64,000 nt of DNA from Aphrocallistes beatrix (lineage: Eukaryota; Porifera; Hexactinellida; Sceptrulophora; Aphrocallistidae), in contig OY725499.1 of the NCBI GenBank assembly GCA_963281255.1, positions 2,995,148-3,059,147 of the forward strand. Direction: 5' to 3'. A program made the translations under genes and the position numbers. Of the stretch, positions 1 to 50,901 are shown piece after piece (position 1 is the stretch's first letter; each line of letters begins with the position of its first letter). A model generated the notes under the pieces. The model did no database searches. It saw only the letters and a program-made list of their open reading frames with translations, and was not told where the DNA came from.

Positions 1-663
1 TGCTCTGGCAGTAAGCGCCCATGGGGTTATAAGGTCTGTGCATCCAATTGAGATCTTCAAAGCCCATCTTTCCATAAATCTTTACATACTTGTAAGCCAC
101 AGAGGAGACATTTACAATTCGGGCAGGTGAAGATTCTTTGATTCGCTCGAGGAGCAAGTTGGTCAGGAGGAAGTGACCCAAATGATTCACTCCGAACTGC
201 ATCTCGAAGCCATCTTGTGTCAGAGTGTATGGACACATAGAGACTCGTTGTTTATGAGAATGTCGATCCTTGGTTCCTCTTCAAGAATCAGAGCTGCGAA
301 CTGGCGTATTGATGCTAATGAGGCAAGGTCCAGTTGTCGGAACACCACATTATCATTTCCGCTTTCTCGTCGAATGTCAAGCACAGCTTTCTCTCCTTTC
401 TCCACATCGCGACAGGCCAGAATGATGCGAGCATTCCTCTTGGTGAGGTCTATGGCTGTTGATTTTCCAATGCCTGTGTTCCCTCCCGTGATGATGACAG
501 TTCTTCGGGTCAATGAGGCTTTAGAATAGCAGACACCTCCAGCAAAGAATCTCCGTATAAAGTAGAGTCCGAGTATAGCCGCTAACGGCCCTACTATGAC
601 GTTGCAAGGGAAAGAAGTGACAGCAGTGAGAGCACTCTGTGCATACTCCTGCATCGAATTCAT
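1..663 (-). pseudogene. Disrupted duplicate of an RDH-like short-chain dehydrogenase (first exon, truncated by window edge)
   Basis: This is a near-identical duplicate of the first exon of the intact SDR gene at 2946-4204. It starts at the same MNSMQEYAQ N-terminus (ATG at 663) and keeps the hydrophobic anchor and the TGGNTGIG cofactor motif. Two changes break it. About 4 bases are missing near 246, so the frame shifts inside the NNAG motif and the reading ends soon after. About 12 extra bases lie near 72-88 relative to the intact copy. The homology runs to the window edge, so the second exon may lie outside. It is probably a pseudogene, although a single frameshift could also be an assembly error. 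Confidence 0.8.
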
Positions 664-1010: not shown

Positions 1011-1824
1011 GGAAAGTGTATAAGACAGTCAAGTCTTCTGATGTCCACGATTATGTGACATCATGCGAAGTGTGTCAAAGAGCTAAACTTGCACTACCAA
1101 CTGAGGTACCACTATTGAATACTCATATTGGAAGAACCATGCAATTAGTACAGGTGGATATTCTTGAGGTTCCTCTCAGTAGAAAGGGAAACATATATCT
1201 TTTGGTCGTGGAAGACGCTTTCACAGAATGGTTAGAATGCTACCCGATACCCAACCAGAAGACAGAGACAATCACAGAGAAATTGGTCGAACTATTTTCG
1301 ATTTTGGTATCCCCGAATTTCTGCATTCGGACCAGGGGCGAACTTTGAATCACGTCTATTGAAGAAACGTGTAGGAGTCTAGGAATTCACAAAACTCACA
1401 CTACACCATACTACCCACAGGGTAACGCATTAGTCGAAGAAGCAACCGAACCGTTCTTCAAATGTTGCAGTGTTATGTCGACAGTAGTGATGATTGGGAA
1501 ACATATCTGTGTTTAGTTCTGTTTGCATACCGCACTTCAAAACACACTAGTACTGGGATCGCACCGTTTCAGTTAATGTTTGGGCGTGATTCTCCAAGAA
1601 TTTCTCACGTATCACCTTCTTCGGAATATGACCCATCTTCGTATGAGCGGTTTCTGGGCCGGAAAATACTCGAGATTCAGGAATTTGTGGAGGGAAAATT
1701 ATCATTAGCTCAGAAGCGACAAAAGGAGTACAATGACATCCACTCGAACCAGAGTGGATCGATTCAAGGTGGGAGATATAGTATGGCTCTATGTGGCGCA
1801 TTCGGGGGTTGCCAGAAAACTTGA
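1000..1824 (+). pseudogene. Integrase fragment of the retroelement, frame-broken
   Basis: Two frames together show an integrase. From 1016 there is a zinc-binding end (CEVCQRAKL) and core strand (QVDILEVPLSRKGN, LLVVEDAFTEW). After a frameshift near 1290-1300 come HSDQGR and TTPYYPQGNALVEEA. From 1462 the distal core and C-terminal part follow (LVLFAYRTSKH, G.APFQLMFGR). The HSDQG and PQGN..VE signatures are typical of Ty3/gypsy integrases. At least one frameshift and internal stops separate the pieces, so no active enzyme is made. Confidence 0.75.
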
Positions 1825-2435: not shown

Positions 2436-2740
2436 TCAATCGTCTCGCTTGAACTCAAACAGGTCAGGGCTGCGTCTGTCTGGATCCTCGTCGAAGGCGG
2501 TGAGGGCGAGAGAGCTGCCCCTCAGGTGCAAGCTGTAGCAGGCCTTCTCCACCTTGAGCAGACTGGAGGAGAGGGTGCGCAGCTTGGAGGAGAGCTCTTT
2601 GGGAGAGAAATGTCGGAACTGCTGTAAGTGCGAGTTCATCTCTTTCATGAATGAGCACACCTGTAGCGGCAACTCTCTGTCTCCAGCTGTGATAGCGCTG
2701 ATGCAAGCTCGCATCATCTCTCCGGTTAGGTCGAGGACAC
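2436..2740 (-). pseudogene. Orphan duplicate of the last TSNAX exon
   Basis: This encodes the same 93-residue C-terminal end as the true last exon of TSNAX at 4523-4827 (MMRACISAITAGDR onward, ending FEFKRDD and TGA). Only a few silent base changes were seen, and the splice acceptor (gacag) is kept. Homology to the true locus stops about 20-30 bases into the upstream intron. The first two TSNAX exons are not duplicated. It could be a dead duplicate or, since it lies downstream of TSNAX on the same strand, an alternative last exon coding for the same sequence. Confidence 0.8.
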
Positions 2741-2945
2741 CTGTCAGGGGAACAGGATTCTCACTTCTCTTTTCTAATTGTGAAAACTACAAATATAATT
2801 GGAATGAGAGAGATAAATTATTATACTTTTACATTCATGAATATTCAATTTTACATATTAAGCGGGGTAAAATAAGTCATCCTGACTGTGAAAAATATGT
2901 TATAATTAATTCTCGACAAGATGTACAATAGAACTACAACGGAGC

Positions 2946-4204
2946 CTAACTACTGTGCTCTTCTAGTCCGACCATCTGCGTACTCAGCTCCCATAGCCTC
3001 TCTGCAGCCTGGTCGTCCATGGCTTCTGCCAACTTGAGTTTCTTCACTTTGCAATCTTCCAAGTACTCCCCACTCACCCCCTCCATCTCCGAACTCACTG
3101 CACAGTGGATGGAGGTCTGTGCGCCTTCCGTTGGAGTCTTCCAGAAGAGATAGACGATCGGGTACAGGATGGCTCTCTAGAACATATATATATGTATATC
3201 GTATCCCTCAACACACGTACGTTATAATACAACTCATGTATTAGGCCCTTGTTGATTGAAAACTAAATTAATTAACTCACCCACCCGAATCTAGACGTTA
3301 GTATACCACAATATGCACTCTTCATTCCCATTATTGCATCATCTTCCCTCGGTATAAATACGTACATACTTGAATAACTATTCAAATAGTATGTCTCAAG
3401 ACAGTAGGTAGTACTAAGGTGGCTCACCAATATCCAGGCATGTCGCTGGATCTCAGTATTCACAGCTCCAGGATGGAGTGTATTTGCAATAACGTCCGTT
3501 CCATCCAAGCGTTTGGCGAGGGCTTTTGTGAAGAGAATATTAGCCAGTTTGCTCTGGCAGTAAGCGCCTAAACGGTAATAAGGTCTGTGCTTCCAATTGA
3601 GATCTTCAAAATCCATCTTTCCGGACTTGTAACCCACAGAGGAGACATTTACAATTCGGGCAGGTGAGGATTCTTTGATTCGCTCGAGGAGCAAGTTGGT
3701 CAGGAGGAAGTGACCCAAATGATTCACTCCGAACTGCATCTCGAAGCCATCTTGTGTCAGAGTGTATGGACACAAAAAGACTCCTGCGTTGTTGATGAGA
3801 ATATCGATCCTTGGTTCCTCTTCAAGAATCAGAGCTGCGAACTGGCGTATTGATGCGAATGAGGCAAGGTCCAGTTGTCGGAACACCACATTATCATTTC
3901 CGCTTTCTCGTCGAATGTCAAGCACAGCTGTCTCCCCTTTCTCCACATCGCGACAGACCAGAATGATGCGAGCATTCCTCTTGGCGAGGTCTATGGCTGT
4001 TGATTTTCCAATGCCTGTGTTCCCTCCCGTGATGATGACAGTTCTTCGGGTCAATGAGGCTTTAGAATAGCAGACACCTCCAGCAAAGAATCTCCGTATA
4101 AAGTAGAGTCCGAGTATAGCCGCTAACGGCCCTATTATGACGTTGCAAGGGAATGAAGTGACAGCAGTGAGAGTACCCTGTGCATACTCCTGCATTGAAT
4201 TCAT
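2946..4204 (-). CDS. RDH11-14-like short-chain dehydrogenase/reductase
   Basis: An NADP(H)-type SDR of the retinol dehydrogenase 11-14 group, expected to oxidise or reduce retinoid-like or other lipophilic alcohols and aldehydes at ER or mitochondrial membranes. Two exons: 4204-3428 (259 codons, donor TTG|GTGAGC) and 3176-2946 (acceptor ttctag), giving 335 residues, the usual size. An N-terminal hydrophobic anchor lies at about 20-38. TGGNTGIG is at 59-66, NNAG at 138-141, the VSS serine at about 189 and the catalytic YCQSK pair Y215/K219. The second exon supplies the typical RDH tail (LFWKTPTEGAQTS, VSGEYLEDC, LW.LS). A broken duplicate lies at 1-663. The exact substrate cannot be read from sequence. 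Confidence 0.9.
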
Positions 4205-4522: not shown

Positions 4523-6373
4523 TCAATCGTCTCGCTTGAACTCAAACAGGTCAGGGCTGCGTCTGTCTGGATCCTCGTCGAAGGCGGTGAGGGCGAGAGA
4601 GCTGCCCCTCAGGTGCAAGCTGTAGCAGGCCTTCTCCACCTTGAGCAGACTGGAGGAGAGGGTGCGCAGCTTGGAGGAGAGCTCTTTGGGAGAGAAATGT
4701 CGGAACTGTTGCAAGTGCGAGTTCATCTCTTTCATGAATGAGCACACCTGTAGCGGCAACTCTCTGTCTCCAGCTGTGATAGCGCTGATGCAAGCTCGCA
4801 TCATCTCTCCGGTTAGGTCGAGGACACCTGTCAGGGGAGCAGGATTCTCACTCCTATATCCATTTATCAAATTGGACTATACTGGGATTATTGGGAGGGG
4901 GGGGAGGAATTTCATTTATTTAGTGACACATCTGAAAACGAGGAAACTATTCATCAGAAATCTTCAAACCCATTTTAAGAATGTTTCTCTTATCAAGTCT
5001 TTCCAGACACGTTTGGTTTGTACCAGTAAATTTTCTAAATTTTATTCCTTCCTGATCATAGAAGGAATAATAGTATAGAAAAAATTCTTTCTGAATACAA
5101 TTGAACCTCTTTGGCACAATTATTGGCAATGAATAAAATATTGAGTCTCGTAATGTACTAACCGAGCACGTAATCCATGATGAGGAGAGTTCCCTTGAAG
5201 AAGGGGGCTAGGTGCTGGAAACTGACGAGAGAATTGAACCGTAAAAAGTGATAGAAAGTGAGAGCCTCCACCAGCTCCTGATACCCGTTAGAGAATGCCC
5301 TGGAGTATCGGTGGGGGTCTAGCTGTGAGATCTCCTGCTCGATGGAAGAGATGAGAGGAGAGAGGGAGGAGAACTTGGTGATGCATTCCTTAAACACGGA
5401 CTCCATGTCTGGACTACCTGTAGGGACGAATAACTAAACTGCTGAGTGTACAGCTGTGGTGGATAAGTCGGTCACTAACGGCCTATAGCCACATTTTGAT
5501 TGTATCCCCGCCAAGGCTGGATTCGGTTAACCGGCTAACCGCTGTCGATCTCGGTTAACGGTTAAGAAAATCTTAGATCGGCTAGCCGATCTGCTTTATT
5601 TTCTAAATACACTAATTTCATTGTTTTTTCGACGGAGATTCATGATTATTACTTCTAAAAAATTAATAATTCATTATAATTTCTATTTTTAACCATATAG
5701 TATATTTCGAGACAACTGCAAAATTATCAAATTAATCACTAGCAGGTTAAATATTAGTCTAAAAATCCATATTTCAACCAATTAATAATGACATCGGTTA
5801 ACCGGTTAACCGCCCTAGAGGAAACCAAAATAACCGAGCCCTAAAATCGGTTAACCAACCCCAGCCCTGTCCCCACATCACATGCAATGCCCTTCCTAGG
5901 AGTCCAACTATTCAATACGCAACGAATCTATCAAAAGTTACTCGATCCATTGATAACTTCATCATGATGAATATCTGTAAATTATCATCCATCCATCGCA
6001 TTATTGCATTCATGGTAGAGTACAATTATTTGAATAACGAATTGTTGCGTATCGAATATTTTGCATCCTCTTTCCTAGAACATATTGTCCCATAGGAATA
6101 TGAGTAGGGACTAACAAACACACCCACAGCTCTATGCAGGTTGAAGATGATCCTCTTGCTGGCGATGGTGATGTCCCTACTGATCTTCACCAGTCGCTCA
6201 TACTTGTCATGGTGGGAATCCATCTCCGTCCTGAAGCTGAGGAATGTCTGAATCACAGGCGAGTCTGAATCGATAGAATCATGCTCTTTGGTAGTATTTT
6301 CACTTTCTTTTCTCTTCTTCTTCCCTTCCATTCCCTCTCTGCCTCCTTTCGCTCCTTCGGTTTCTGAAGACAT
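4523..6373 (-). CDS. TSNAX: Translin-associated factor X (TRAX), C3PO subunit
   Basis: TRAX pairs with translin to form C3PO, the endonuclease that removes passenger strands and matures tRNAs; TRAX supplies the catalytic acidic residues. Three exons: 6373-6124, 5417-5163 and 4827-4523, all joined in phase 1, giving 269 residues (human TRAX has 290). Landmarks: HDKYERLVKISRDITI followed by SKRIIFNLHR in exon 1, SPDMESV and YQELVEALTFYHFL in exon 2, and DYVLG joined to VLDLTGEMMRACIS then KVEKACYSLHLRG in exon 3. The start is the ATG of MSSETEG, followed by a Lys/Glu-rich stretch where family members carry a nuclear localisation signal. Intron 1 contains a hAT-like MITE. The last exon is duplicated at 2436-2740. 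The RdRP gene begins 4.7 kb away. Confidence 0.92.
5512..5869. mobile_element. hAT-like MITE in TSNAX intron 1
   Basis: The ends are inverted: CAAGGCTGGATTCGGTTAACC at the left and the complement of CAGGGCTGGGGTTGGTTAACC at the right, with further GGTTAACCGG repeats inside. The flanks TCCCCGC and TCCCCAC suggest an imperfect 8-bp target duplication. Nothing is encoded; about 358 bp. Confidence 0.65.
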
Positions 6374-7805: not shown

Positions 7806-8966
7806 ATGGGAACAAACAATTTTGTTGGCATATTAACATTTCTAGAATACATGCTGGCGATTCCACTTCTCCTGGCGAGTCTTTTTCTATCAATAATTTG
7901 GGATATCTACTTCGTTAGGAGGATTAGAAGTTGCATCAAGTCTTACAGAAAAAATGCTGAGAATGCAATAGCAGACCCTTTCGGAAATTTTTCAGAGGCT
8001 GCAAATCAGCGCAAATCAGAGATAGTCAAGTATGTCTTCATGTTGCTAATAAATGTCACGGAGTTCGTGGACATGCAAATATACGGATTAGGCTCTATAT
8101 TGGCAAATGAACCAAAATCATATGAACATATATTTATGCCCAATCGCGTCACAATTTCAAACTGCACCAGTGAGTTGACTCAACATAGACTCTTTGACTT
8201 ACATTTGATAACAGCAAATCCGATCAATTCTATTATATTATCCTTTGGACAAGTCGGGCTAATGTTCTCTTTAGCATTGGTGAGCTGTCTCATGAAGTAC
8301 CTCCATGTTTCTTATCGCAACACTTATCTTAAACCGTTTCAAAGTATCAAAGTATTTCTCCTGGTGACATCTCTGATAGGGATCTTCTTACTCATTACAG
8401 GATCTGTACAGCAATTAATGATCGTTCATAAGCTCATCGAACCTATAGTACAACTCGTCTACTTTTGTATTTGGATTAGAAATGCCAGAATATTCCATAA
8501 AACCCTGGAATGGAGGACTATCGAGTTAAGAGTGAGAAGATGTAACAACCGCGTTGTGAGGAGATCGATCATTGGCAGTTATCAATTCGCACTAATAATG
8601 AGTTGTATGGGAGTCGCGACTGCCTGTTTGATTCTCAGTGAATTTCTCGAGGAATATTTGTTCCTAATCGCGACAGCTATTTACTACGGTCCGTGTCTCT
8701 TCAACTACCTCTATTCCACTCCCTACTTCCAGCCACTCCTGGTCACACAGCAGCAAATCAATGCATTACTCCTTTCTTATGAAATCAAGGCCTATACAAC
8801 AACCTTCCTGGTTATAACAGCGTGTGTATTGATCGGAGCACAGTACATCTCGTCTACTGCTCTATTTTTTGGAAGAAAACTTAAGGAAAAATTAGACTAT
8901 CGATTTGGAAGAGTTCGCGTCAGGTTTTCACCTGAACTGACTCGGCGTCTTCTTCCTCGGTCATAA
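7806..8966 (+). CDS. Orphan multi-pass membrane protein, distant member of the local 7TM family
   Basis: Not a protein I recognise. It is 386 residues in one exon with about seven hydrophobic segments, at roughly 10-33, 75-100, 145-165, 180-205, 210-228, 255-285 and 335-360. The tail is basic (RVRVRFSPELTRR). Its layout parallels the genes at 17765, 20519, 23446 and 49777: helix 1 ends in a basic run, a KYVF.L helix follows, then a YLHVSYRN..LKPFQ loop. A paired-helix block ending LVYFCIWIRNARIFHKTLEWR stands where the others have NLILLLRD.SFLSR. Sequence identity is low, so kinship rests on this shared pattern. A role as a lineage-specific receptor or chemosensor is inference only. Confidence 0.7.
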   Translation: MGTNNFVGILTFLEYMLAIPLLLASLFLSIIWDIYFVRRIRSCIKSYRKNAENAIADPFGNFSEAANQRKSEIVKYVFMLLINVTEFVDMQIYGLGSILANEPKSYEHIFMPNRVTISNCTSELTQHRLFDLHLITANPINSIILSFGQVGLMFSLALVSCLMKYLHVSYRNTYLKPFQSIKVFLLVTSLIGIFLLITGSVQQLMIVHKLIEPIVQLVYFCIWIRNARIFHKTLEWRTIELRVRRCNNRVVRRSIIGSYQFALIMSCMGVATACLILSEFLEEYLFLIATAIYYGPCLFNYLYSTPYFQPLLVTQQQINALLLSYEIKAYTTTFLVITACVLIGAQYISSTALFFGRKLKEKLDYRFGRVRVRFSPELTRRLLPRS

Positions 8967-11062
8967 ATGCATGAGTTTCATTTATTAAATGCTTCCGCTT
9001 TTCTTTCTTTTAAATTTGCCTGAGCTTCCAGTTAACTAAGTATATGTATAATCAGTGGTGCTTTGCTGAAAAAAGAAGTGGGAGGGCCTCCTATTCATTT
9101 TTAAATGCGTGGTCTGTTTGAAATAATATCTGGGGCCATATTTACAAGGAATCTTAAACTTAGTCTTGAAACTAAGTTTAGACTTAAACTTAGTTTTGAT
9201 AGTCAAGTCAACTGTTTTTTATCTCAAATATTTAAGTAAGGTAAAGAGGAGACTTAATTTTTAATAATTTCAAATTTAACAATTTCTTAACAACCATGAA
9301 ACATAAACAAATTGAAGACTAATATTTGTGTAATATTGCTTGATTTATTCAATTACATAACTTTTTAGTAATAAAGAATTGCTATCGCTAACATCCTATG
9401 ACTTCAATATTTAGGTACAATTATTTCAAAGCAAAACTAAGTCTAAGTTTAAGTTTATATGTAAAACATGGATGTGAAGTTAGCAGCACTTTCAACAGCG
9501 AAAACTGAGCATGGTATTAACAACTATAAGTTCCCTATATGAAGAGATATCAATCCCAAATTTGTTGGAGAGATATTTCAGCGATGTAGTATGACGCTAT
9601 TTCAATTAATAAGAGATAGCATCTCAGGTTAGCTGATAGTGAGTCAGCAAAATTGATAAATTTCTCTTTTTTTTCTAATATTGGGAAAGTAAGCATGTCA
9701 TAAACTAAAACAAGATATTAGTTAGCATAATTCTGTAGTGACAGCAGCGAAGCCATGGGGCAATTTTGGTCATTTCGTATTACGATGATGCACATACTAT
9801 ACAATGATCGCTGTCATTCTCTGAATCAATGTCACCTCAAGTCCAACGATAATATTTTGACTGGGATTCAGTCAAATTTCATATTCAACAATTACTTGTT
9901 TCGAGTAATTAAAAAAGTAAATAGTTAAAAAATATCATAAAGATACCCCAGTTTGCCTCCACCTTTATCAAACTGTCGCCACCGTGAGATCCCATAAAAG
10001 CGCCGGATACCAAGTGAGTATAGTCTGGCTCAGTTATAATGCTCAAATATGCTTTTTTTCATTTTTTTCCGTGCTTTTTCCACATTTCAACAATTAACAT
10101 CATAAGAAGAATGAGCTGCGTCATAGAGTAATTCCGTGATTAATTTTGTATAGTCTACTGAGACAGAAAGAATAATATGGAAAGGAAAATATAAAAGAGA
10201 TTTTAAGACACTAAACTAAGTTCTAAATGCCTTGAAGGAATGCATTGATGGATCATTCTTATTCAAGTTCAGTGCAAACTACACTGCAAGTACTGCAACT
10301 TATTTGGATTCCTCAACAATACAGTTACAGTCAAACACTGTGTGCATGTGGATAGGTGCATAGCTAGACATTTCTCAGGAGGGGGCAGATTTTTAAATAT
10401 AATATTTAGGTGGACAAAAAGCGAGAGTCCTTAATGGGAACAACGCATCATAGCCAATATCTCTATTGAGGGCCATCTTGATTGCACCAATATTTTTACA
10501 AAATATCCTTAGTTCTAGGCTGATGGGACGAACCTGGTAACTACAACACCGCTCCTTCCTTACCTATCTACCAACTAAAAATACTAGACAAGAGGAATAT
10601 TTGTGTAAGCTAATTCCTTGCACTATACATACACGTATTTTAAATTCCTACTGAATTCCAAAGGACTGAATCCACATCAGGGGTATAGGAATGGGGGGAC
10701 GTATGGGAAAATGTAATAATCTGTCGGGGAAAGAATTGGAAGAAATTTAGAAAAGACTCTAATTTAGACCCCTGTCGGGGAATTCCTGGCGCCACCCCTG
10801 CTCCTGGGTCATGCTAAGTTGTAAACTCTAGCTAGAACGTTAAGAATGGCTGTCACATAATCACGATGTATATTTGCCTGCAAATAAAGGATAAATTAAG
10901 TGAAAATAATTGCTTCATTAGAGACAAAAAAACAGCTGTAGATCCATATGCGACCATATTAGATATAAAAACTTTCCTGGGGGGCTTGCCCCCCCCCAGT
11001 CTCCCTTAATTAAAAGAGGAAATTGATGCACTCTAATACGTATAGCTAAGCTAATATTATAG
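8967..11062. other. 2.1-kb gene-free spacer upstream of the RdRP gene
   Basis: AT-rich with no supported coding frame. It holds a MITE-like repeat at about 9130-9472. The base just before the RdRP ATG reads attatag, which both gives an in-frame stop and looks like a splice acceptor. Confidence 0.5.
9130..9472. mobile_element. MITE-like inverted repeat rich in AAACTTAGTCT
   Basis: The left end GGGGCCATATTTACAAGGA with AAACTTAG/CTAAGTTT repeats is mirrored by AAAACTAAGTCTAAGTTTA and ATGTAAAACATGG at the right. No reliable target duplication was found. Confidence 0.45.
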
Positions 11063-14000
11063 ATGTCCAAGATAATCCTTTGTGGAGCGAATTCAGCTGA
11101 CAAGGCACAACTCGCGATTGACTGGTGTTCCCAACACAAAAGTTACACTCATGTTAAGGAGGTTGCTAGCTATGTGATAGACCAGCACAACATCAATAGA
11201 GATGACTCTCACCCTATACAACCACAAGTCGAACTTGTTGACTTGATCTTCCAAGAGCAGAACAGGAGAGAGATGAAATCAGGCAGTCGCTCCTTCATCA
11301 CAGAGGCGGGACCGGACTATCTTATCCATGCGTTTCTCGCTAGCAAGGACAGAGCAATCGTAGCATCTGAATCAAGAGGAGTGAAGGAGTGCTTTGCTCG
11401 TTACAGAAAGAGCTTGGTTGTGTTCCTGTGTCCGCTAGAGGAGAGAGCTGAGGAAGGAGCTATTTGTCCTCTGGATAACTTTACAGGTTCGCTGCACCAA
11501 CTTCTACGAGAGTTCAGGATTCCATACATGTGCTTGGATGAGAATGATTCAGCGCGAATTGAGACACTTGAACTAGCTGTGAAAGGTACGCTACCCATTC
11601 CCGTGAGTCTGGAGCAGTTCATGGACCACATGTGCCTCTCCTTCTTCTTAGACACTAAGAAACCTTTGCAAGCGCGTTACACTTATCAGCTGCCTCTCCA
11701 AGGGAAGGAAGCCAGGGTGCGTACATTCGAGATAAAGAAGACCGAGATTGTAATGGAAAATAAGGAGATGGACAACTTCGATACGAACAGGATGGTAGAC
11801 CGGTATGGAGAAGAGGAATTCGTCTTGATCGAGTTCGTCAACTTGCCTGCAGCCTGTGTGAAGCAATGCCTGAAGCAGGGAGTAGAGGTTAACGGGGAGA
11901 TGTACCAGTTCATTGGCTCCAGTGTTGGTGGGATAAAGAAGACCAAATGTTATCTGAAGAAGGGGAGTGTAGAGCATATAGGCACGGTTCTCTCGGAGTG
12001 TGGAGACTTTTCTGGTGAAAAGACGGTATCGAAACGGTTGAAGAGAATCGCACTGCTATTTTCTGTAGCTAGGGACTCGGGTGTATCAGTGTCTGAGGAG
12101 AAGTTTCAGGTTATTGACGATATAAAGTCTAAAGATGGTAAATATAATTTCACAGACGGATGTGGGTTAATCGGAGTTGAACTAGCTGAACAGGTTGCTA
12201 AAGGAGCCAACAAGCACGTGGAGTCTCTTGAAGATAACGTACCGTCTGTCTTTCAGATCAGGTATCAAGGGTGCAAGGGAGTGGTTTGTAAAGAGCCTAA
12301 GTTAGAGCCTAATACCATCCAGGTGAAGAGATCCATGCATAAATTCAAGGCAGGCACAAAACCGTTCCCGAATGTTTGGGTTTGTAAAACTTCGCACCCC
12401 TACTCCTACGGGATGCTGAATAAGCAGTTTATCATGCTGCTCTCTGGACTAGGGATAAAGGATGAAGTGTTTCTAGACAAGCAGAAAGAATACTACATCG
12501 GCCTAGAGAGTATGTTAACTATTTCTGAGTCTGCGATTATAATACTTAACTGGAAAAATCGCACAGACATCGCATCAAGGATAGCCTCATGCACAACCAT
12601 AGAGGAATTAAAGCAAAAAGAGATAGTGGAGCCTCTCAAATTGGTGAGAGAGAAACTCATCGATAAGTTGGAGAAGTTACAAATCCCCATTTTGAACTCT
12701 CGGACGATGTTTGGCGTTTGTGATCCTCGCGAGCTGTTAGAGTACGGAGAGTGCTTCATTCGCATTACTGATAACGGCTCGCCACGAAGTCTAGAGCCAG
12801 GCACTAAGATTATAGTCGTGAAGAATCCTTGCTACATGCTGGGAGACATTCGTGTGCTGACAACCAGGGATTGCCCTGAACTGGACCATCTGGTGGATTG
12901 TATTGTGTTCCCAGTCAAGGGCAAGCGTCCACATCCTGACGAGATCGCTGGGTCGGATCTGGACGGGGACGAGTACTTCGTGAGTTGGGATGCAGACCTG
13001 ATTCCAGAGAGGCCAGCTGAGCCCTACGAATTCCCCGCAGCGGATGACCCTCCTTGCCCGGGAGAAATAACTCGGGAGATGATGATAGACTACCTAGCAG
13101 ATTACAGTGACAACATGGGACAGATCGATGGCAGCTTTCACCATTGGGCTGAAGTTCTAGGCCCGAACTGCACCAAGTGCCAGAGGCTGGGAGCTCTGTT
13201 CTCGAGGAGTGTCGACGCATCTAAGACCGGCGAGAAGATCAGGCTAGACCGGGACCTCCGTAAGCCTAAGCCTGGCCCTGACAACCCATCCCCTGACAGG
13301 CCGAAGCGAGTGTGGGAGAGAATGAAGGAGCTAGCTTGTGCGCGGAAAAAAATCCTAAATGCAGAAGATAAACTGAAAAGCGAGCAGTCTCCTCCGAGCG
13401 AGAAATTCATTCTCAGACTCCTGTGCGGGAAGGAGCTCGGTCTGTCTGAATTCCGGCTGTTCCGGCTGCTGCGTAAGTGGTGCTACGCAGTGGAGACGTC
13501 GGAGGGTGGAATGCGAGAGAAGCTGTGTGAGCTTTCAGATCACATCAACTTCGGTTTGTTCACGTTAGTTCAGAGGAAAGAAGCGATCGAGGATGGAATT
13601 CCAGCTGAGATCGTAATGAATGCACTGAACAAGTCCAAACTAATGAACAGGGATATGCTGCAGTGGTTCTCTCTCACTCTCCCAGCGTGCGCGTGGAAGT
13701 TCTACATCAGAGCATTGGGTCGAGAGTTGGATTGGAAGGACCTCCTACGGGCACTGACTGGGTACCCCGAGTCCATGCTCATCCTGCAGCTGGACATGGA
13801 TGTGAGGGTAGCGTTCCACTTCATGGGAACTCTCCGACAAGGCGATTCCACACTGCCACCTGGGTCTCTAGCTGCCTATTTATACTCTCCTCACATGGGG
13901 CAGCAGCTACGCTATGTCTCTGCTACTCAGTACACTCTCAATCTGGAAGATGGCGTCATCCAAGCATTTCGTGGAAATGTACGGAAGCAGACGTTTATTT

Positions 14001-17000
14001 GGTTTAGTAAGGATCAAGTGGACTTGTATCCTAAACTGAGCTTGGACTTGACTCGATTTCGGAGAACGATACTCCGGGTGGATGCCCACCCGCGTATCTT
14101 CAAACAGGACGTCCAGTCGGTAGAAGTCTTCGTGAAGAGCAGGTTCAACGAAGACACCGCTTACTTCGACATTCTAGACTCAGACCAGTGCGGAGATCTC
14201 TTCACGGCAGACTTGGTCTCTTCTGAGAACTTAGAAGAACTGCCTAGTGATGAGGAGGAGGAGTTGGTATTTCCCAACACAGAACCGGTAAGGTTAGCTC
14301 CTAATGAGGGTTTGGAGAGAATGACAGAATACGCCGAGAAAGGAGACTGCTTGCAATTCAGTCGGATTGTTTCTGGTCTGGATGACGACGTGATGGAGAC
14401 GATCACACACTCCAAACTGTCAGAAGAAGTCCTCGCTCTTTTGAGTACTCTTGTTGTGAAATTCTCTCACAAAATTCCTTCTGAAAATTTCACAGAATAC
14501 CTTTGGAATATATTGAAGTCTTCTCATGTAATATTTCTAACACCTCAAGATTTGTTGCTACTCTACTCTAGTCTGAACAAACTACACATGGACAAGTTGA
14601 CACGAGACCATCTTAAAGCACTCCACAGCTCTCCATTCAAACTGGACTCCGTAGCTCAATACATTGACTGCGTTTCTCACTTTGAAGAGTGGTCCTTCCT
14701 TCCTACGTATGCGTGCCGCCAACTTTTAAACAGTCTCTACCTCATGAACTCTGAACTCTTAGCTCAGCAGCCTGAAGCTTCAGATTCAGTTAGCACTTCT
14801 AATCCCTACACAATACAGGATGTAGTGAGTATGACCGACATGCCTGCTCCTAACATTCACGAGACTCAATTGCTGTATTACAGATGTTATTTCGGATTTC
14901 TAATGCTTAAGCACTTACTGGCAGAGTCTCCATCGCCCGAAGAATTCAGGAGAAGTTCTGATACAGACAAGAGCATATGTATGTTGAAAGCAACCAACCC
15001 TCCTAAAGATACGCGTGTCGATTCAAAGGCAGATGGAAGTTGCGAGGGAGAGGAACAGCCAAGCGATGTGCCAGCGAAGAAGAAGAAAAAGGAAAATCCA
15101 CAACCTTTTAAAGTTTGCTTCTATCGACTCCATAGATTCGCATCAAATAAATTCAGTGATGGATCCTTCGTTAAAATACGACACTTAACAAACCCCGATT
15201 CAAAGCATTCGCAGAAACCTATCGCGCTGGGCCGCATCACTCGAGTGGTCAGGAGACCGGGCTCTAACGTGATCGCAGTGGACATATCCGAGCCAGTGCC
15301 TGAGTGCATCAAGAAGTCAGCTGATCTAGAGGTTGGCTACTGGAGCCTCACTCTGCTCGGGAATGTCACCAGCTTCCAGAGATCCTGCAAAGCTCTGCAG
15401 CGACTGCACAACTCACCGGATATCACACCCATCCTGATATCTCCTGACGCTTTCCCGCCCAACATTCTCAGAGAGGAAAGAGAGGATTACGAGTTAGAGC
15501 CACAAGAAGCGATGGAAGTTGCATTGACGTCACAGCGTATACACAAGAATGGATGCAAGACTTGTGAAGTTAGAGAAAGATTCAACACAAGTCAGGAGAA
15601 TGCTATTCGCGCGGCTCTCAGTCAGCGACTCACTCTCATCCATGGACCCCCCGGGACGGGAAAAACGTGCGTCGCTTCCGAGATAGTCCATCGAATGTGT
15701 CATCTGAATGAGCGTGACGGGGAAGAGATGGATGAGAAGGCGAAGATATTGGTAGCAGCAGAGACGAACAACGCAGTGGATAACCTCACACGGAAGCTGG
15801 TGCATATGGGCATGCGTGTGGTCCGTGTGGGGAGCCAAGTGTCCCCTGACATCCAGCAGCACACCCTGGACAAACTGGTCAGGAAGCGGAGGGAAGAATT
15901 GGGCGAAGAGGCGAGAGGAGAGCATCTGCCTCCCAGGCTGAAGAAGGAAATTCTCCATTCTGTTGATATCGTAGCGACAACTTGTACTGGGGCTGGTGAC
16001 ACAGATTTGAAGGGCATTACGTTCTCATTCGTCCTAATTGATGAGGCAACTCAAGCCGTAGAGCCCGTCTCCTTGATCTCCGTCGCCAAATCCTGTCAGA
16101 AGCTTGTGCTGATTGGAGATCCGAAGCAACTAGCTCCAACCATTTCAGATCAGCAGCAAGATGAGTGCGCAGAGATTCCAGCTCTGAACCTTCTACAGGA
16201 GACGCTGTTCCACAGACTCCATTGTAAGATCAAGTCTTCATTCCTAGAGGAACAGTATAGAATGCACCCCTACATCGCTCTCTTCCCTTCGCAACGGTTT
16301 TATGCCGGAAAGCTGAAGAGTGGTGTGACAGAGGACGAACGAACACCTCCCGATTTGAAATTCCTGGATATGGACAGGCCAGTTGTATTTATAGATGTTG
16401 AGTCACAAGAGCGTTCCACGTATGCTTCTCATCGGAACGAGAAAGAAGCGGAAGTTATTGTCGACGTAATCAAAGAACTAAATTGTGTGAAAGGTGCCGA
16501 TTTCTTGGTGAATGTAGCCGTGCTTACTCCTTACGTTGGACAAGAAAGATGCATCAGGGAAAAATTGGAAAACGAGTCTCTCAAGGTAGAGGTCTGTACG
16601 ATCGATAGTTTCCAGGGGAAGGAGAAAGACGTCATCGTGTTTAGCACCGTGAGGAGTAATGAACAAGGCCAGCTCGGGTTCACAGACAGCGAGCACAGAA
16701 TCAACGTGCTACTGACCAGGGCGAAAATAGCTCTAATCGGAGTTGGCAACGGTAAAACGCTTGCACATAGTGAGATTTGGAATGACTGGTTGGATGAGAA
16801 TATCGTAATCACAGAGGAGGAGTTCTATGAACTTTGTGATGTTGATAGGACCGCAGAAATGGACCAGCCTCGTCCTGACAAGTATTTTAGGAAGAGAAGT
16901 ACTGAGAACCACTCTTCCAATAGAGTAGCTAGGAGTAGAATGAGCTCCTCACGACATGCCACCCTTGGTGATTATTATCAGTCAGACAGGCAGAACAATA

Positions 17001-17149
17001 TTCGTACACAGCCCAGAGTATACGTGTCGAACTCATCTGAGAGAAGTTCAGTTGCAAATAGGCGTGAGGTGGACAATGAGGGCGTTGGACCTAGGTTTGG
17101 AAGAGTTCGGATTGATGACAAGAGTTATCAAGGCAGAAAGAGTTACTGA
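11063..17149 (+). CDS. RNA-dependent RNA polymerase fused to a UPF1-like SF1 helicase, with an N-terminal P-loop-like domain
   Basis: One intronless frame of 2028 residues. Residues 1-190 resemble an AAA_28/NadR-like P-loop NTPase with a decayed Walker A (GANSADKA, 8-15) and the family pattern KEVASYV, FQEQNRRE and a GPDYL step. Residues about 200-1030 are a cellular (RDR/QDE-1) RdRP that copies RNA for small-RNA amplification: QIRYQGCKGV at 398-407, SRTMFGVCD at 546-554, and the metal-binding DLDGD at 632-636 with all three Asp present. An acidic linker (SDEEEE, about 1080), a long helical region and a KKKKK run (1339-1343, possible NLS) follow. The helicase spans about 1345-1915: GPPGTGKT at 1528-1535, DEAT at 1660-1663, GDPKQL at 1685-1690, QYRMHP at 1731-1736, DSFQG at 1848-1852 and NVLLTRA at 1881-1887. 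The tail is Ser/Arg-rich and disordered. The start is fixed by an in-frame TAG just before the ATG. Confidence 0.95.
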   Translation: MSKIILCGANSADKAQLAIDWCSQHKSYTHVKEVASYVIDQHNINRDDSHPIQPQVELVDLIFQEQNRREMKSGSRSFITEAGPDYLIHAFLASKDRAIVASESRGVKECFARYRKSLVVFLCPLEERAEEGAICPLDNFTGSLHQLLREFRIPYMCLDENDSARIETLELAVKGTLPIPVSLEQFMDHMCLSFFLDTKKPLQARYTYQLPLQGKEARVRTFEIKKTEIVMENKEMDNFDTNRMVDRYGEEEFVLIEFVNLPAACVKQCLKQGVEVNGEMYQFIGSSVGGIKKTKCYLKKGSVEHIGTVLSECGDFSGEKTVSKRLKRIALLFSVARDSGVSVSEEKFQVIDDIKSKDGKYNFTDGCGLIGVELAEQVAKGANKHVESLEDNVPSVFQIRYQGCKGVVCKEPKLEPNTIQVKRSMHKFKAGTKPFPNVWVCKTSHPYSYGMLNKQFIMLLSGLGIKDEVFLDKQKEYYIGLESMLTISESAIIILNWKNRTDIASRIASCTTIEELKQKEIVEPLKLVREKLIDKLEKLQIPILNSRTMFGVCDPRELLEYGECFIRITDNGSPRSLEPGTKIIVVKNPCYMLGDIRVLTTRDCPELDHLVDCIVFPVKGKRPHPDEIAGSDLDGDEYFVSWDADLIPERPAEPYEFPAADDPPCPGEITREMMIDYLADYSDNMGQIDGSFHHWAEVLGPNCTKCQRLGALFSRSVDASKTGEKIRLDRDLRKPKPGPDNPSPDRPKRVWERMKELACARKKILNAEDKLKSEQSPPSEKFILRLLCGKELGLSEFRLFRLLRKWCYAVETSEGGMREKLCELSDHINFGLFTLVQRKEAIEDGIPAEIVMNALNKSKLMNRDMLQWFSLTLPACAWKFYIRALGRELDWKDLLRALTGYPESMLILQLDMDVRVAFHFMGTLRQGDSTLPPGSLAAYLYSPHMGQQLRYVSATQYTLNLEDGVIQAFRGNVRKQTFIWFSKDQVDLYPKLSLDLTRFRRTILRVDAHPRIFKQDVQSVEVFVKSRFNEDTAYFDILDSDQCGDLFTADLVSSENLEELPSDEEEELVFPNTEPVRLAPNEGLERMTEYAEKGDCLQFSRIVSGLDDDVMETITHSKLSEEVLALLSTLVVKFSHKIPSENFTEYLWNILKSSHVIFLTPQDLLLLYSSLNKLHMDKLTRDHLKALHSSPFKLDSVAQYIDCVSHFEEWSFLPTYACRQLLNSLYLMNSELLAQQPEASDSVSTSNPYTIQDVVSMTDMPAPNIHETQLLYYRCYFGFLMLKHLLAESPSPEEFRRSSDTDKSICMLKATNPPKDTRVDSKADGSCEGEEQPSDVPAKKKKKENPQPFKVCFYRLHRFASNKFSDGSFVKIRHLTNPDSKHSQKPIALGRITRVVRRPGSNVIAVDISEPVPECIKKSADLEVGYWSLTLLGNVTSFQRSCKALQRLHNSPDITPILISPDAFPPNILREEREDYELEPQEAMEVALTSQRIHKNGCKTCEVRERFNTSQENAIRAALSQRLTLIHGPPGTGKTCVASEIVHRMCHLNERDGEEMDEKAKILVAAETNNAVDNLTRKLVHMGMRVVRVGSQVSPDIQQHTLDKLVRKRREELGEEARGEHLPPRLKKEILHSVDIVATTCTGAGDTDLKGITFSFVLIDEATQAVEPVSLISVAKSCQKLVLIGDPKQLAPTISDQQQDECAEIPALNLLQETLFHRLHCKIKSSFLEEQYRMHPYIALFPSQRFYAGKLKSGVTEDERTPPDLKFLDMDRPVVFIDVESQERSTYASHRNEKEAEVIVDVIKELNCVKGADFLVNVAVLTPYVGQERCIREKLENESLKVEVCTIDSFQGKEKDVIVFSTVRSNEQGQLGFTDSEHRINVLLTRAKIALIGVGNGKTLAHSEIWNDWLDENIVITEEEFYELCDVDRTAEMDQPRPDKYFRKRSTENHSSNRVARSRMSSSRHATLGDYYQSDRQNNIRTQPRVYVSNSSERSSVANRREVDNEGVGPRFGRVRIDDKSYQGRKSY

Positions 17150-17764: not shown

Positions 17765-18890
17765 ATGGATCAAAATTTGGTAGTTAACATAATCGCGAGA
17801 TCAGTCCAAAGTATTGCCTTCTTGCTATTAACTGTGACTTTTTTTCTAAATTTTATTTTGGTTTCTTGCTTGGCAAAGAAAATTTGTAAAATTTACAAAA
17901 GCAAATGTGAACAAACGTTGAATCCACACCTATCCTACCTCTCTAAACCCAAGCTATACAACTACAGAACACATAACCAAGTATGTCCTCATGTGTTCCT
18001 GTAGTGTTGTGGAGCTTTTAACTATAATTTCTTATGCAGCTACAACCTCCCTACATAGTATTTTATGGCATGAAAAGTACAATGATACTCACAATTTCCA
18101 GTCTGACAATTCCACTGCAAGATGTATGTTATCTGGTTCACAATTGTTACTCGAATCATCACCTGTATATATAGTGGCGATGAACATGAACTTTATCTTA
18201 GTTTTTCTAATCTTCACCATCATCTCCATTTCATCTCGATATCTGGTTGCCAGGTATTTGAATCTTTCTTTCAAACGAACTCTAACCAAATACTTAATCT
18301 GGTTCGCCACACAATCTCTAATAATAGTATTCTGTTCCTCAGTGTATACTCTGATATTCTCTTTCTTTCTCGTTCCAATTATCGCTCTCATCAATTTGAT
18401 TTTGTTGTTAAGAGACAATTCTTTCCTTAGTCGAGCCATCTTATCGAATCTGAGAAATATTCAGTTTTTCACTTTTAATAAAGCCCTCTACAAACAAGAG
18501 CTTGCAATCTACAAGTTCTATCGATTTTTTAGAATCTTTTTGCAAACGTTTGCTTTCAGCACTTTTCTTATCGTCATCCTACATTATGTGATCTTCGTAA
18601 TGGAGTTAATCATCCATAAATTTTGTCTCTTTCATGCTATCTACCATCTACCTATTCCAAGCCAAATATTAATATTTCAGTCTGGTCAATGGATATTGGT
18701 TAGGGATGTTGTAGAACTAGTCGAGGGAATTCTACTGTTTATCCAAGCTTTCTCACTCAGTATACCGTTATTATTCATAATGGTATCACCAGTTGTAGAC
18801 AGATGTGTCAAGCTATGTCGGCAGAAAGAGGACCAGTTTAGGTTCAATTATGATAATTTACAGCCTCTTTTAACTAGGAGAAGACACTAA
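17765..18890 (+). pseudogene. 7TM-family paralogue, copy 1, one frameshift
   Basis: This copy is nearly the same as those at 20519 and 23446, but about 2 bases are missing near 17974 (RTHITKYV in the others becomes RTHNQVCP here, then a stop). The rest of the protein is readable in the next frame from about 17975 to 18890, including ARYLNLSFKRTLTKYLIWF, NLILLLRDNSFLSR and the CVKLCRQKEDQFRFNY tail. No intron signals are needed to explain the break. It is either a recent pseudogene or an assembly error. Confidence 0.75.
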
Positions 18891-20518: not shown

Positions 20519-21645
20519 ATGAATCGCAATTTGGTATTTAGTTTAACCACTAAATCAGTCCTGGGTATTTCGTTCTTGCTATTAATGATAGCTTTTTTTC
20601 TAAACTTCATTTGGATTTCTTATTTAGCATTGAAAATTTGGAAAATTTATGGAAAGAAATGTGAGCAAACGTTGAATCCACATCAATCCTACCTCTCTAA
20701 ACCCAATCTATACAACTACAGAACGCATATAACCAAGTATGTCCTAATGTGTTCCTGTAGTGTTGTGGAGCTTTTAACTATAATTTCTTATACAGCTACA
20801 AGCTCTTTAAATAGTATTTTATGGAATGAAAAGCACAAGGATGCTCAAATTATCCATTATGACAATTCCACTGCAAGATGTATGTTATTTGGTTCACAAT
20901 TGATACTCGAATCATCACCTGTATATATAGTGGTGATGAACATGAGATTGATTCTACTTTTTCTAATCTTCACCATCATCTCCATTTTATCTCGATATCT
21001 GGTTGCAGGTATTTGGATCTTCCATTCAAACGAATTCTAACCAAATACTTAATCTGGTTCGCCACACAATCTCTAATAATAGCATTCTGTTCCTCAGTGT
21101 ATACTCTGATATTCTCTTTCTTTCTCGTTCCAATTATCGCTCTCATCAATTTGATTTTGTTGTTAAGAGACAATTCTTTCCTTAGTCGAGCCATCTTATC
21201 GAATCTGAGAAATATTCAATTTTTCACTTTTAATAAAGCCCTCTACAAACAAGAGCTCGAAATCTACAAGTTCTACCGATTTTTTAGAATCTTTTTGCTA
21301 ACGTTTGCTTTCAGCACTTTTCTTATCGTCATCCTATATTATGTGATCTTCGTACTGAAGTTAATCATCCGTCATTTTTGTCTCTTTCATGCTATCTACC
21401 ATCTACCTATTCTAAGCCAAATATTAATATTTCAGTCTGGTCAATGGATATTGGTTAGGGATGTTGTAGAACTAGTTGAGGGAATTCTACTGTTTATCCA
21501 AGCTTTCTCACTCTGTATGCCGTTATTATTCATAATGGTATCACCAGTTATATACAGATGTGTCAAGCTATGTCGACAGAAAGAGGACCAGTTTAGGTTC
21601 AATTATGATAATTTACAGCCTCTCTTAGCTAGGAGAAGACACTAA
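20519..21645 (+). pseudogene. 7TM-family paralogue, copy 2, one frameshift
   Basis: It reads as an intact family member (MNRNLVFSLTTKSVLG start, RTHITKYVLMCSCSVVELL) up to SRYLVAG. One base is then missing near 21006 (GGTTGCAGG here, GGTTGCCAGG in copies 1 and 3). The remainder, from the loop before helix 4 to the CVKLCRQKEDQFRFNY tail, continues in another frame to 21645. If the base were a sequencing loss, this would be a normal gene of about 376 residues. It lies tail-to-tail with copy 3. Confidence 0.75.
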
Positions 21646-23445: not shown

Positions 23446-24576
23446 TTAGTGTCTTCTTCTAGTTAAAAGAGGCTGTAAATTATCATAATTGAACCTAAAC
23501 TGGTCCTCTTTCTGCCGACATAGCTTGACACATCTGTTGATAACTGGTGATACCATTATGAATAATAACGGTATACTGAGTGAGAAAGCTTGGACAAACA
23601 GTAGAATTCCCTTAACTAACATTATAATATCACGAACAAATTCCCATTGACCAGATTTAACTTTAGGCACTAAAATTTGGCTTAGAATGGGCAGATGGTA
23701 GATAACATGAAAGAGACAAAATTTACGGATGATTAACTGCAGTACGAAGATCACATAATATACGATGACGATAAGAAAAGTGCTGAAAGCAAACGTTAGC
23801 AAAAAGATTCTAAAAAATCGGTAGAACTTGTAGATTGCGAGCTCTTGTTTGTAGAGGGCTTTATTAAAAGTGAAAAACTGAATATTTCTCAGATTCGATA
23901 AGATGGCTCGACTAAGGAAAGAATTGTCTCTTAACAACAAAATCAAATTGATGAGAGCGATAATTGGAACGAGAAAGAAAGAGAATATCAGAGTATACAC
24001 TGAGGAACAGAATGCTATTATTAGAGATTGTGTGGCGAACCAGATTAAGTATTTGGTTAGAATTCGTTTGAATGGAATATTCAAATACCTGGCAACCAGA
24101 TATCGAGATGAAATGGAGATGATGGTGAAGATTAGAAAAAGTAGAATCAATCTCATGTTCATCACCACTATATATACTGGTGATGATTCGAGTATCAATT
24201 GTGAAACAGATAATTCACATCTTACAGTGGAATTGCCATCATATTGAATAATTTGAGTATCGTTGTGCTTTCTATGCAATAAAATACTATGTAAAGATGT
24301 TGTAACTAGACAAGAAAGTATAGTTAAAAGCTCCACAACACTACAGGAACACATGAGGACATACTTGGTTATGTGCGTTCTGTAGTTGTATAGATTGAGG
24401 TTAGAGCGGTAGGATTGATGTGGATTCAGCATTTGCTCACATTTCTTTCTGTAAATTTTCCTAATTTTTAATGCCAAATAGGAAACCCAAATAAAATATA
24501 GAAAAAAAGCTATAATTAATTGCAAGCAGGCAATACCTTGGACTGATTTCGTGGTTAAACTAACTATCAAATTCAT
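23446..24576 (-). CDS. 7TM-family orphan membrane protein, copy 3 (intact)
   Basis: A 376-residue single-exon protein of no family I recognise. About seven membrane segments lie at roughly 13-35, 70-97, 132-158, 174-194, 196-213, 250-278 and 322-350. Conserved marks shared with copies 1, 2 and the gene at 49777 are RTHITKY before helix 2, SRYLVARYLN.PFKR..TKY.IW, P.I..INLILLLRD.SFLSR, FYRFFRI, and a C-terminal CVK.CR.KEDQ.R.NY tail ending in basic residues. No DRY, NPxxY or other standard GPCR motif is visible. It is convergent with copy 2, and the promoter has a TATA box. A lineage-specific receptor role is inference; a transporter is possible. Confidence 0.8.
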   Translation of the reverse strand: MNLIVSLTTKSVQGIACLQLIIAFFLYFIWVSYLALKIRKIYRKKCEQMLNPHQSYRSNLNLYNYRTHITKYVLMCSCSVVELLTILSCLVTTSLHSILLHRKHNDTQIIQYDGNSTVRCELSVSQLILESSPVYIVVMNMRLILLFLIFTIISISSRYLVARYLNIPFKRILTKYLIWFATQSLIIAFCSSVYTLIFSFFLVPIIALINLILLLRDNSFLSRAILSNLRNIQFFTFNKALYKQELAIYKFYRFFRIFLLTFAFSTFLIVIVYYVIFVLQLIIRKFCLFHVIYHLPILSQILVPKVKSGQWEFVRDIIMLVKGILLFVQAFSLSIPLLFIMVSPVINRCVKLCRQKEDQFRFNYDNLQPLLTRRRH

Positions 24577-32549: not shown

Positions 32550-32882
32550 ATGGGATCAAAGCAAAAGGTAGCCATTATCGGAGCTGGTCCAATAGGTTTC
32601 ACTTTGCTAAGAGTGATCCAACAGTCGATCAAAGGAAAGGTCCTGCATCTAGTGTGTTGCGAAAAACAGGATGATTGGAGTGGAATGTGGAACTATACAT
32701 GGAGGACAGGCACTGATCAATATGGAGATGTCATTCATAATAGCATGTGCCGTGATCTTTGGACGAATTTTCCGAAGCAATATAGCGAGTTCCCAGATTA
32801 TACTTTCGAAGAACAAAAAGCTTCTGGTCACACAGACCCAACTCTAACATGCTCAGACCTATTCCTACGAGATAGCCTATAG
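32550..32882 (+). pseudogene. Truncated FMO duplicate
   Basis: The first ~90 codons match the intact FMO at 33265-34578 closely (VAIIGAGPIG, WNYTWRTGTDQYGDVIHNSM, FPDYTFEE). The homology ends abruptly near 32815 and the frame stops at 32882. The NADPH site and the rest of the enzyme are missing, and DDWGGMW has become DDWSGMW. It is a non-functional tandem copy. Confidence 0.8.
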
Positions 32883-49776: not shown

Positions 49777-50901
49777 ATGAGTAAGATCGCACTAAATATA
49801 ATAAAAACTTTGACCGGTATCCTTGGAATACCATTATTATTTATTTTTATAGTTCTCATTATTGGGTGGATTGTTCGCTTCTCTCTTCAGTGTTGGAGAC
49901 TGTGTAAAGAATATCGGACTTGCAAACGAACTCCTGTTCTACATCCCCTCTACTCAGATGTGCAATATCTCTCTAAACAACGGAAACTATACAACCTGAA
50001 AACACACATCACGAAATATTCCCTAATGATTCTCTGCAGTTCTGTTGAATTATCAGCCATTCTTGGTTACATAATATGCGGCATTATTCAGATAAAACTA
50101 TCGGAATTACCAAACCATACCAAGTTATTGTTTGGTGAATTAACTTGCTATCCAAATATTAGGCCTCTTAGATTGTTTGGGAAACAAATAAATATTTTGA
50201 TTCTCAGTATAGCCTTTTGGCTTTCAAATTTACTTCTAAATCTCCTTGGAATTTTATCTCGTTATCTCGCTGCTAGATATCTCAACCATCCTTTCAAACG
50301 AACACTCATCAAGTATATAATATGGTGCCTTCTCCAATGCATTTTCATATTATTCTGTTCTACATCATACACTTGGATTTTATTCGTCTTGTTTGTTCCT
50401 ATCATCGGCATAGTCAACTTGATTCTGTTGTTGAGAGATACGTCCTTTCTTTCTCGCGTACTCAGGTCCAATCTTAGAGATATCCAACTCTACTCCGACA
50501 ACAGAGTATTCTACATTCAGCAACTGTCAGCATTTAAATTCTATCGCGTATTCCGTATTGTATCACTGACTTCACTTTTTCTCAAATTTCTTATTGAAGT
50601 AACCCCGTCTATTGCTGTAATATTTCAAATAGTGTTTCATGACAGCTGCTCTCTACAATTACAGAACGGTGTAAATATATCATTGTCCATCCCAAGCAAT
50701 TTTCGCAGCCTAGCGGGGTATTTAATGATTCCAGTGGAGGATATATTTATCACTTCATATATTACCTTCCTCTGCTTACCTCTATGTGGCATAACATTCG
50801 TTCCAATCATTCTCAAATGCGTGAAGAGGTGCAGAGAGAAAGAAGACCAATATCGGTACAATTATGAGAAACTAAAACCTCTCTTAAAGAACTACATCTG
50901 A
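49777..50901 (+). CDS. 7TM-family orphan membrane protein, copy 4 (diverged, intact)
   Basis: 374 residues, one exon. It shares the family marks with the 17.8-24.6 kb cluster: a basic loop after helix 1, THITKYSLM, SRYLAARYLNHPFKRTLIKY, PIIGIVNLILLLRDTSFLSR, FYRVFRI, and a KCVKRCREKEDQYRYNY tail. About seven hydrophobic segments. The extracellular-type loops (between helices 2-3 and 6-7) are the most different from the other copies and carry Cys residues, as expected if they bind variable ligands. A TATA-like TATAAATATA lies about 45 bases upstream. The function is unknown; receptor is inference. Confidence 0.8.
   Translation: MSKIALNIIKTLTGILGIPLLFIFIVLIIGWIVRFSLQCWRLCKEYRTCKRTPVLHPLYSDVQYLSKQRKLYNLKTHITKYSLMILCSSVELSAILGYIICGIIQIKLSELPNHTKLLFGELTCYPNIRPLRLFGKQINILILSIAFWLSNLLLNLLGILSRYLAARYLNHPFKRTLIKYIIWCLLQCIFILFCSTSYTWILFVLFVPIIGIVNLILLLRDTSFLSRVLRSNLRDIQLYSDNRVFYIQQLSAFKFYRVFRIVSLTSLFLKFLIEVTPSIAVIFQIVFHDSCSLQLQNGVNISLSIPSNFRSLAGYLMIPVEDIFITSYITFLCLPLCGITFVPIILKCVKRCREKEDQYRYNYEKLKPLLKNYI

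Follow-up and report, generated by a model that had tools for sequence, protein, structure and literature searches.

What does an RNA-dependent RNA polymerase (RdRP) joined to a UPF1-like helicase do in a sponge? A 64,000-nt stretch of Aphrocallistes beatrix DNA, which we call the window, carries on its forward strand, at 11063-17149, a single uninterrupted open reading frame (ORF) that runs from ATG to TGA and encodes a protein of 2028 aa in which both enzymes are recognizable. We examined this protein, its relatives, and its surroundings, and we propose that it represents a distinct and conserved class of RDR-type RdRP, one that likely copies antisense RNA on target transcripts in small-RNA silencing or defence, with the helicase acting on the polymerase's RNA. 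We assign this reading a probability of about 0.6.

Results

One reading frame encodes five modules

A stop-free run of 2028 codons has a chance of about 10^-58.6 at the base composition of the window, whose sequence is free of any N. An earlier note on this DNA, made from its letters, had described one 2028-codon frame with polymerase and superfamily 1 (SF1) helicase motifs, and each motif was found at the position given there (starting at residues 632, 1528, 1660, 1731, 1848, and 1881). As read from the protein sequence, the module order is P-loop-kinase-like, RdRP, TLDc-like, helical, and UPF1-like SF1 helicase, the TLDc-like part being placed by predicted structure. The note's description of a fusion of two partners was therefore right as to the RdRP and helicase in one chain, but overlooked the kinase-like (1-180), TLDc-like (~849-1030), and helical (~1080-1295) domains. 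The features of the gene are as follows:

11060..11062 (+), in-frame TAG that abuts the ATG of the RdRP-helicase ORF
11063..17149 (+), complete ORF, 2028 aa
11063..11602 (+), residues 1-180, P-loop fold like NadR ribosylnicotinamide kinase and thymidylate kinase (Pfam AAA_28), P-loop lost
11738..13372 (+), residues 226-770, cellular RdRP core (PF05183)
12956..12970 (+), residues 632-636, catalytic DLDGD
13607..14152 (+), residues ~849-1030, TLDc-like domain (predicted)
14153..14299 (+), residues 1031-1079, acidic linker (31% D+E), predicted disordered, with low predicted local distance difference test scores (pLDDT)
14300..14947 (+), residues ~1080-1295, mostly helical domain, from the secondary structure of the predicted model
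14948..15097 (+), residues 1296-1345, charged linker of low model confidence
15107..15487 (+), residues 1349-1475, region preceding the helicase core, where a custom profile matches
15575..16798 (+), residues 1505-1912, SF1 helicase core (AAA_11 and AAA_12), UPF1-like by Pfam and PDB sequence search
15644..15667 (+), residues 1528-1535, helicase motif I GPPGTGKT
16040..16051 (+), residues 1660-1663, helicase motif II DEAT
16253..16270 (+), residues 1731-1736, QYRMHP
16604..16618 (+), residues 1848-1852, DSFQG
16703..16723 (+), residues 1881-1887, NVLLTRA
16799..17149 (+), residues 1913-2028 and stop, tail of low conservation (19% K+R), 18-26% identical to its counterparts in four close relatives

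The polymerase half is a cellular RDR-type RdRP, with activity predicted from its sequence. The Pfam scan placed the PF05183 domain at residues 226-741 (E 2.2e-109), a PDB sequence search found plant RDR2-type enzymes to be nearest (E 2.7e-54), and in that alignment the DLDGD lines up with the DLDGD of a plant RDR; this half also has an RDR2-like core fold. In the helicase half, AAA_11 begins at residue 1507 (E 6.9e-46) and AAA_12 covers 1711-1897 (E 6.3e-52), so that all three profiles proposed for checking in the earlier note matched strongly. The best PDB sequence match of this half was yeast NAM7/UPF1 (E 9.8e-63), with the helicase motifs aligned, and the half combines SF1 motifs with a UPF1-like core. 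Neither the UPF1-type amino-terminal CH domain (UPF1_Zn_bind, PF09416) nor the NF-X1 zinc-finger family, a feature of ZNFX1, was found by Pfam scan at E up to 1. The sole DEAD match (E 0.0011, below the cut-off) fell at 1510-1605, within the SF1 core, and none lay amino-terminal to the RdRP. Residues 1349-1475 presumably correspond to the UPF1-type 1B domain; their profile also matched 76 of the 120 listed helicases. An NCBIfam scan gave sub-cut-off matches only, the top one being the IGHMBP2 helicase family.

The single chain is conserved in relatives

Searching for homologues of the full-length protein gave 143 hits, and the family counts given here refer to 121 proteins, namely the 120 listed and that of the window. 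The architecture, which the earlier note suggested looking for elsewhere, was found in 114 of the 121 (window included), each holding an RdRP and over half of the helicase profile. Alignments to the window protein ran over residues 1-1983 in one piece for P0002 (52% identity), 1-1978 for Oopsacas minuta P0007 (49%), 3-1950 for Dysidea avara P0039 (38%), and 1-1910 for Mercenaria mercenaria P0084 (33%). The stretch between the halves, residues 1031-1345, taken as three segments, was 31-54% identical to each of P0002, P0003, P0007, and P0012. Since relatives align across nearly the whole protein, junction included, we consider it a natural single chain, as the earlier note had supposed, and not an assembly join.

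Among the matches listed, the nearest named relative was Oopsacas minuta, itself a glass sponge (PMC10280926), and the named sponge members were Oopsacas, Dysidea, and Ephydatia, the last including P0067 of the freshwater sponge Ephydatia muelleri. Other named members listed were a clam, the crinoids Antedon and Anneissia, the diatom Seminavis, and 28 fungal entries, each of which has the helicase and lacks the N-terminal kinase-like domain; P0103 of Trichoderma reesei QM6a is a fungal family member. In our data, Rotaria, Macrostomum, and the diatom Attheya have related RdRPs that lack a full helicase.

Of the 121 proteins, 116 retain DxDGD; the motif is changed in P0014, P0018 (an Oopsacas paralogue), P0032, and P0038, while P0121 is gapped at this position. 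The first three sit in the Oopsacas-containing group of the RdRP tree described below, and P0038 lay outside the tree sample. To judge from sequence, these four are possible polymerase-dead paralogues.

Trees of the two halves

Rows for the trees were hand-chosen from 355 proteins, 69 for the helicase and 68 for the RdRP, of which 8 and 5 were dropped to leave 61 and 63. The search for RdRP relatives was limited to proteins with lengths of 0.55-1.75 times 875 aa; the RdRP tree is a quick tree without bootstrap, and "sponge-like" is our own label. In both the RdRP and the helicase tree the window fell in the same nine-row group with both Oopsacas proteins (Shimodaira-Hasegawa-like approximate likelihood ratio test, SH-aLRT, 99 and 100), so that both halves point to the same relatives. 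In the RdRP tree, 56 of the 63 rows were united by a branch of length 0.95 (SH-aLRT 100), outside which stood three plant RDRs, P0206, P0194, Ptychodera, and Dinothrombium. The 24 sponge-like rows formed one group (97), as did the 14 fungal rows (99).

Whether the fused form arose once was addressed with the helicase rows. FastTree split fused from unfused rows at 0.93, with the fragments P0237 and P0245 on the fused side, and the free quick tree from IQ-TREE (61 rows) put the crinoid P0177 among the unfused rows. A tree constrained to hold the fused rows together scored 8.4 log units higher than the free tree and was not rejected (approximately unbiased test, AU, p 0.81); a tree holding the fungal fused rows with the unfused ones scored 8.40 higher and was equally unrejected (AU p 0.81). 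P0237 and P0245 were counted as fused in these tests, a choice made after the FastTree result. Because both constrained splits can hold at once, neither test decides the matter, and a single fusion event is neither rejected nor proven. Inside the clade there are also proteins of about 970 aa with RdRP and TLDc-like domains and no helicase (P0128, P0129, P0131, and others), which are either real or partial gene models; these members count against a simple one-origin story.

A viral or prokaryotic origin was considered separately and set aside: scans with P0001 (viral contigs) and A2 (viral and prokaryote contigs) yielded 50, 473, and 592 pattern-match stretches, with no relative among them in those collections.

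Kinase-like and TLDc-like modules

Residues 1-180 have a P-loop kinase fold. Where the consensus of aligned relatives reads GASSVGKTT, the window protein reads GANSADKAQ; the intact P-loop GxxxxGK[ST], kept in 58 of the 71 proteins with a kinase-like domain (window among the 71), is thus lost, and conventional ATP binding by this copy is improbable. By custom profile the domain is missing in 50 of the 121 proteins, comprising the 28 named fungi and 22 others, which include P0058 and further sponge-like rows as well as the crinoid P0116. An RdRP of the bdelloid Rotaria sordida, P0154, has the same N-terminal kinase-like domain together with a TLDc-like domain. Bdelloid RdRPs have been described as strongly expanded, divergent, and of unclear origin (PMC7943196), and the kinase-like domain of P0154 is a possible link to them.

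Residues ~849-1030 have a TLDc fold in the predicted model. Pfam TLD gave no match in the window protein at E up to 1, two matches among 17 family members (best E 0.091), and, among six further proteins, one in P0129 (E 0.022; 15.1 bits, where the cut-off is 24.5). In the same 17 members, four other Pfam families each found a single match, and for three of these families the E was lower than for TLD (0.022, 0.055, and 0.066). A profile of the region, searched against 177,635 PDB sequences, found a single match, to a TLDc chain (E 1.1). These sequence matches being weak, the TLDc assignment depends mainly on the predicted model. By custom profile, the domain was absent from all seven plant RDRs among the listed proteins. 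Our guess, from their folds alone, is that the TLDc-like and kinase-like domains are docking or nucleotide-sensing modules.

Neighbouring sequence

The RdRP gene is flanked on both sides by a family of hydrophobic ORFs, probably multi-pass membrane proteins:

7806-8966 (+), membrane ORF family
17991-18890 (+), membrane ORF family
20519-21645 (+), membrane ORF family
23446-24576 (-), membrane ORF family
49777-50901 (+), membrane ORF family

Identity among the copies at 17991, 20878, and 23446 is 79-87%, and a Pfam scan at E up to 0.01 matched none of the stretches at 7806, 20519, 23446, and 49777. There is also a local duplication: dehydrogenase-like copies at 220-663 (-) and 3272-4204 (-), the latter matching adh_short, are 91% identical over 149 residues, and an adjoining pair of ORFs, 2554-2931 (+) and 4641-5078 (+), is 97% identical over 73 residues. 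A partial flavin-monooxygenase-like copy at 32550-32882 (+) and a longer one at 33265-34578 (+) share 88% identity over 85 residues. A retroelement integrase fragment lies at 1016-1345 (+), with rve and Integrase_H2C2 matches both below the Pfam cut-off. A probable eIF3B gene at 58677-61332 (+), an RRM piece followed by eIF2A-type pieces with weak matches, is split over several frames, as if multi-exon; the 6 kb RdRP gene, by contrast, is uninterrupted. Scans of the window found no tRNA and, at the gathering score, no Rfam family.

Discussion

How might the two enzymes work together? UPF1-type helicases move 5' to 3'. As the polymerase travels toward the 5' end of its template, such a motor helps most on the nascent strand; on the template strand it would run against the polymerase. 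In the mechanism that we propose, the RdRP would synthesise antisense RNA on target transcripts and the helicase would track the nascent strand 5' to 3', peeling the product off its template. The outcome would be either reused templates or single-stranded antisense products, the latter being what such stripping predicts. A role in the production of small interfering RNAs (siRNAs) we infer by analogy with Fgrdrp5 of Fusarium graminearum, which shares the layout and whose knockout gives a phenotype.

Several points weigh against this silencing role. In amphioxus, which has a protein with RdRP and AAA_12, siRNAs that depend on RdRP went undetected, and a function outside RNA interference (RNAi) was suggested (PMC6396948). 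The effect of Fgrdrp5 was weaker than those of Fgrdrp2 and Fgrdrp1 (PMC11237814), and it is the Fusarium verticillioides relative P0179 that falls in the clade, Fgrdrp5 itself being compared by description only. Lastly, the altered DxDGD in 4 of the 121 family proteins suggests that some members may not polymerise.

A broader and more tentative proposal is that these proteins make up an unrecognised eukaryotic class of RdRP, its unit being RdRP plus TLDc-like domain, usually accompanied by a UPF1-like motor and, in a diatom and many of the animal members, by the NadR/thymidylate-kinase-like P-loop domain, so that polymerase, motor, and sensor would share one chain. Were this so, (i) a signal derived from nicotinamide or a nucleotide could be sensed or produced by the kinase-like domain, which might in this way tune, for example, initiation or the 5' ends of the RNA; (ii) the TLDc-like domain could place the enzyme at endolysosomes bearing V-ATPase as an antiviral RNA copier; and (iii) the first module of the window lineage would now be a pseudo-kinase.

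The same enzyme might also serve outside RNAi, making double-stranded or antisense RNA as a signal in quality control or innate immunity while the helicase recognises aberrant or foreign RNA; we regard this as possible but doubtful. It would suit the amphioxus result, and also the absence of one of six RdRP genes of Branchiostoma belcheri from 50% of tested individuals, a pattern linked in that study to dispensable defence genes (PMC12373286), as well as the fact that UPF1/NAM7 is the solved protein closest to the helicase. The protein lacks the CH domain of UPF1, however, and the Fgrdrp5 knockout, the sole one found for this layout, lowers Dicer-dependent siRNAs (PMC11237814).

We think it improbable that the helicase precedes the polymerase along the template and removes structure and protein, allowing secondary small RNAs to be primed, as the earlier note had proposed and in the manner of Rdp1 with Hrr1. 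The motifs of both enzymes are intact, and helicases act in other RdRP-dependent silencing, namely Hrr1, SAD-3, and RDE-12 (as told in PMC11237814); ZNFX-1 is a helicase in the small-RNA silencing of C. elegans (PMC9276528). Such a model nevertheless gives the TLDc-like and kinase-like domains no place, and a motor with the 5' to 3' polarity of UPF1 would, on the template, oppose the polymerase. That an assembly error brought two genes together, or that the ORF is never transcribed as a single unit, would be very surprising given the 114 proteins with the same joined architecture, which refute a chimera, the alignment of the junction, and the common placement of both halves.

The antisense-copying enzyme that we favour bears on what RdRPs do in animals outside nematodes, which has been called an evolutionary enigma (PMC6396948). 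Sponges studied have been said to lack RdRP (PMC6211395, PMC4752309); another study found one in Halichondria and lists Porifera among RdRP-bearing groups (PMC6085071), with which the long conserved proteins named Oopsacas, Dysidea, and Ephydatia agree. The terms Argonaute, Dicer, piwi, and RNA-dependent RNA polymerase are absent from the main text of the Oopsacas genome paper (PMC10280926). The sponge RdRP-helicase proteins offer a handle on the role of animal RdRPs outside nematodes, and the TLDc-like and kinase-like modules, if they hold up, offer testable leads on where the class acts and what it senses.

Comparison with known systems

RDR2 of Arabidopsis and maize is not known to carry a helicase, and its structural match to the window protein stops before residue ~775. 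UPF1/NAM7 is itself the best PDB sequence match of the helicase core, but the Pfam scan found no CH domain in the window protein. Rdp1 and Hrr1 of the fission yeast RNA-directed RNA polymerase complex (RDRC) are separate subunits, unlike the single chain here; the likeness lies in an RdRP partnered with the RNA helicase Hrr1 (PMC11237814).

RDRs with a DEAD-box helicase are known from Dictyostelium, oomycetes, Hydra, and Nematostella (PMC4791657) and also combine helicase and RdRP in a single chain. They carry the DEAD-box helicase at the amino end, whereas the window protein carries a UPF1-like SF1 helicase at the carboxy end, which bears out the earlier note's statement that oomycete fusions use another helicase type.

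Fgrdrp5 is an RdRP with DEXDc and PF13087 AAA domains whose deletion affects ex-siRNAs, as reported in a 2024 study (PMC11237814). Its helicase follows the RdRP, at 1277-1478 and 1475-1677, fitting the layout of the fungal family, and it has a small-RNA phenotype; it differs in that the named fungal entries all lack the N-terminal kinase-like domain. The term "TLDc" is absent from the text of that paper, which is not to say that no TLDc-RdRP or kinase-RdRP link has been published.

The earlier note knew of no such arrangement in an animal, a statement that must be corrected. In BL02069 of Branchiostoma lanceolatum, AAA_12 accompanies a complete RdRP domain whose catalytic site is preserved (PMC6396948, Fig 1B legend), and database relatives are named as sponges, clam, and crinoids. 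The comparison with BL02069, an RdRP and AAA_12 in one animal protein, was made by published description and implies no orthology; the terms TLD, NadR, AAA_28, P-loop, and kinase do not occur in the text of that paper. An RdRP and an AAA_12-type helicase in one chain is thus already known, by description, from amphioxus and a fungus, and the more interesting content of the sponge protein is its five-module layout and its separate clade.

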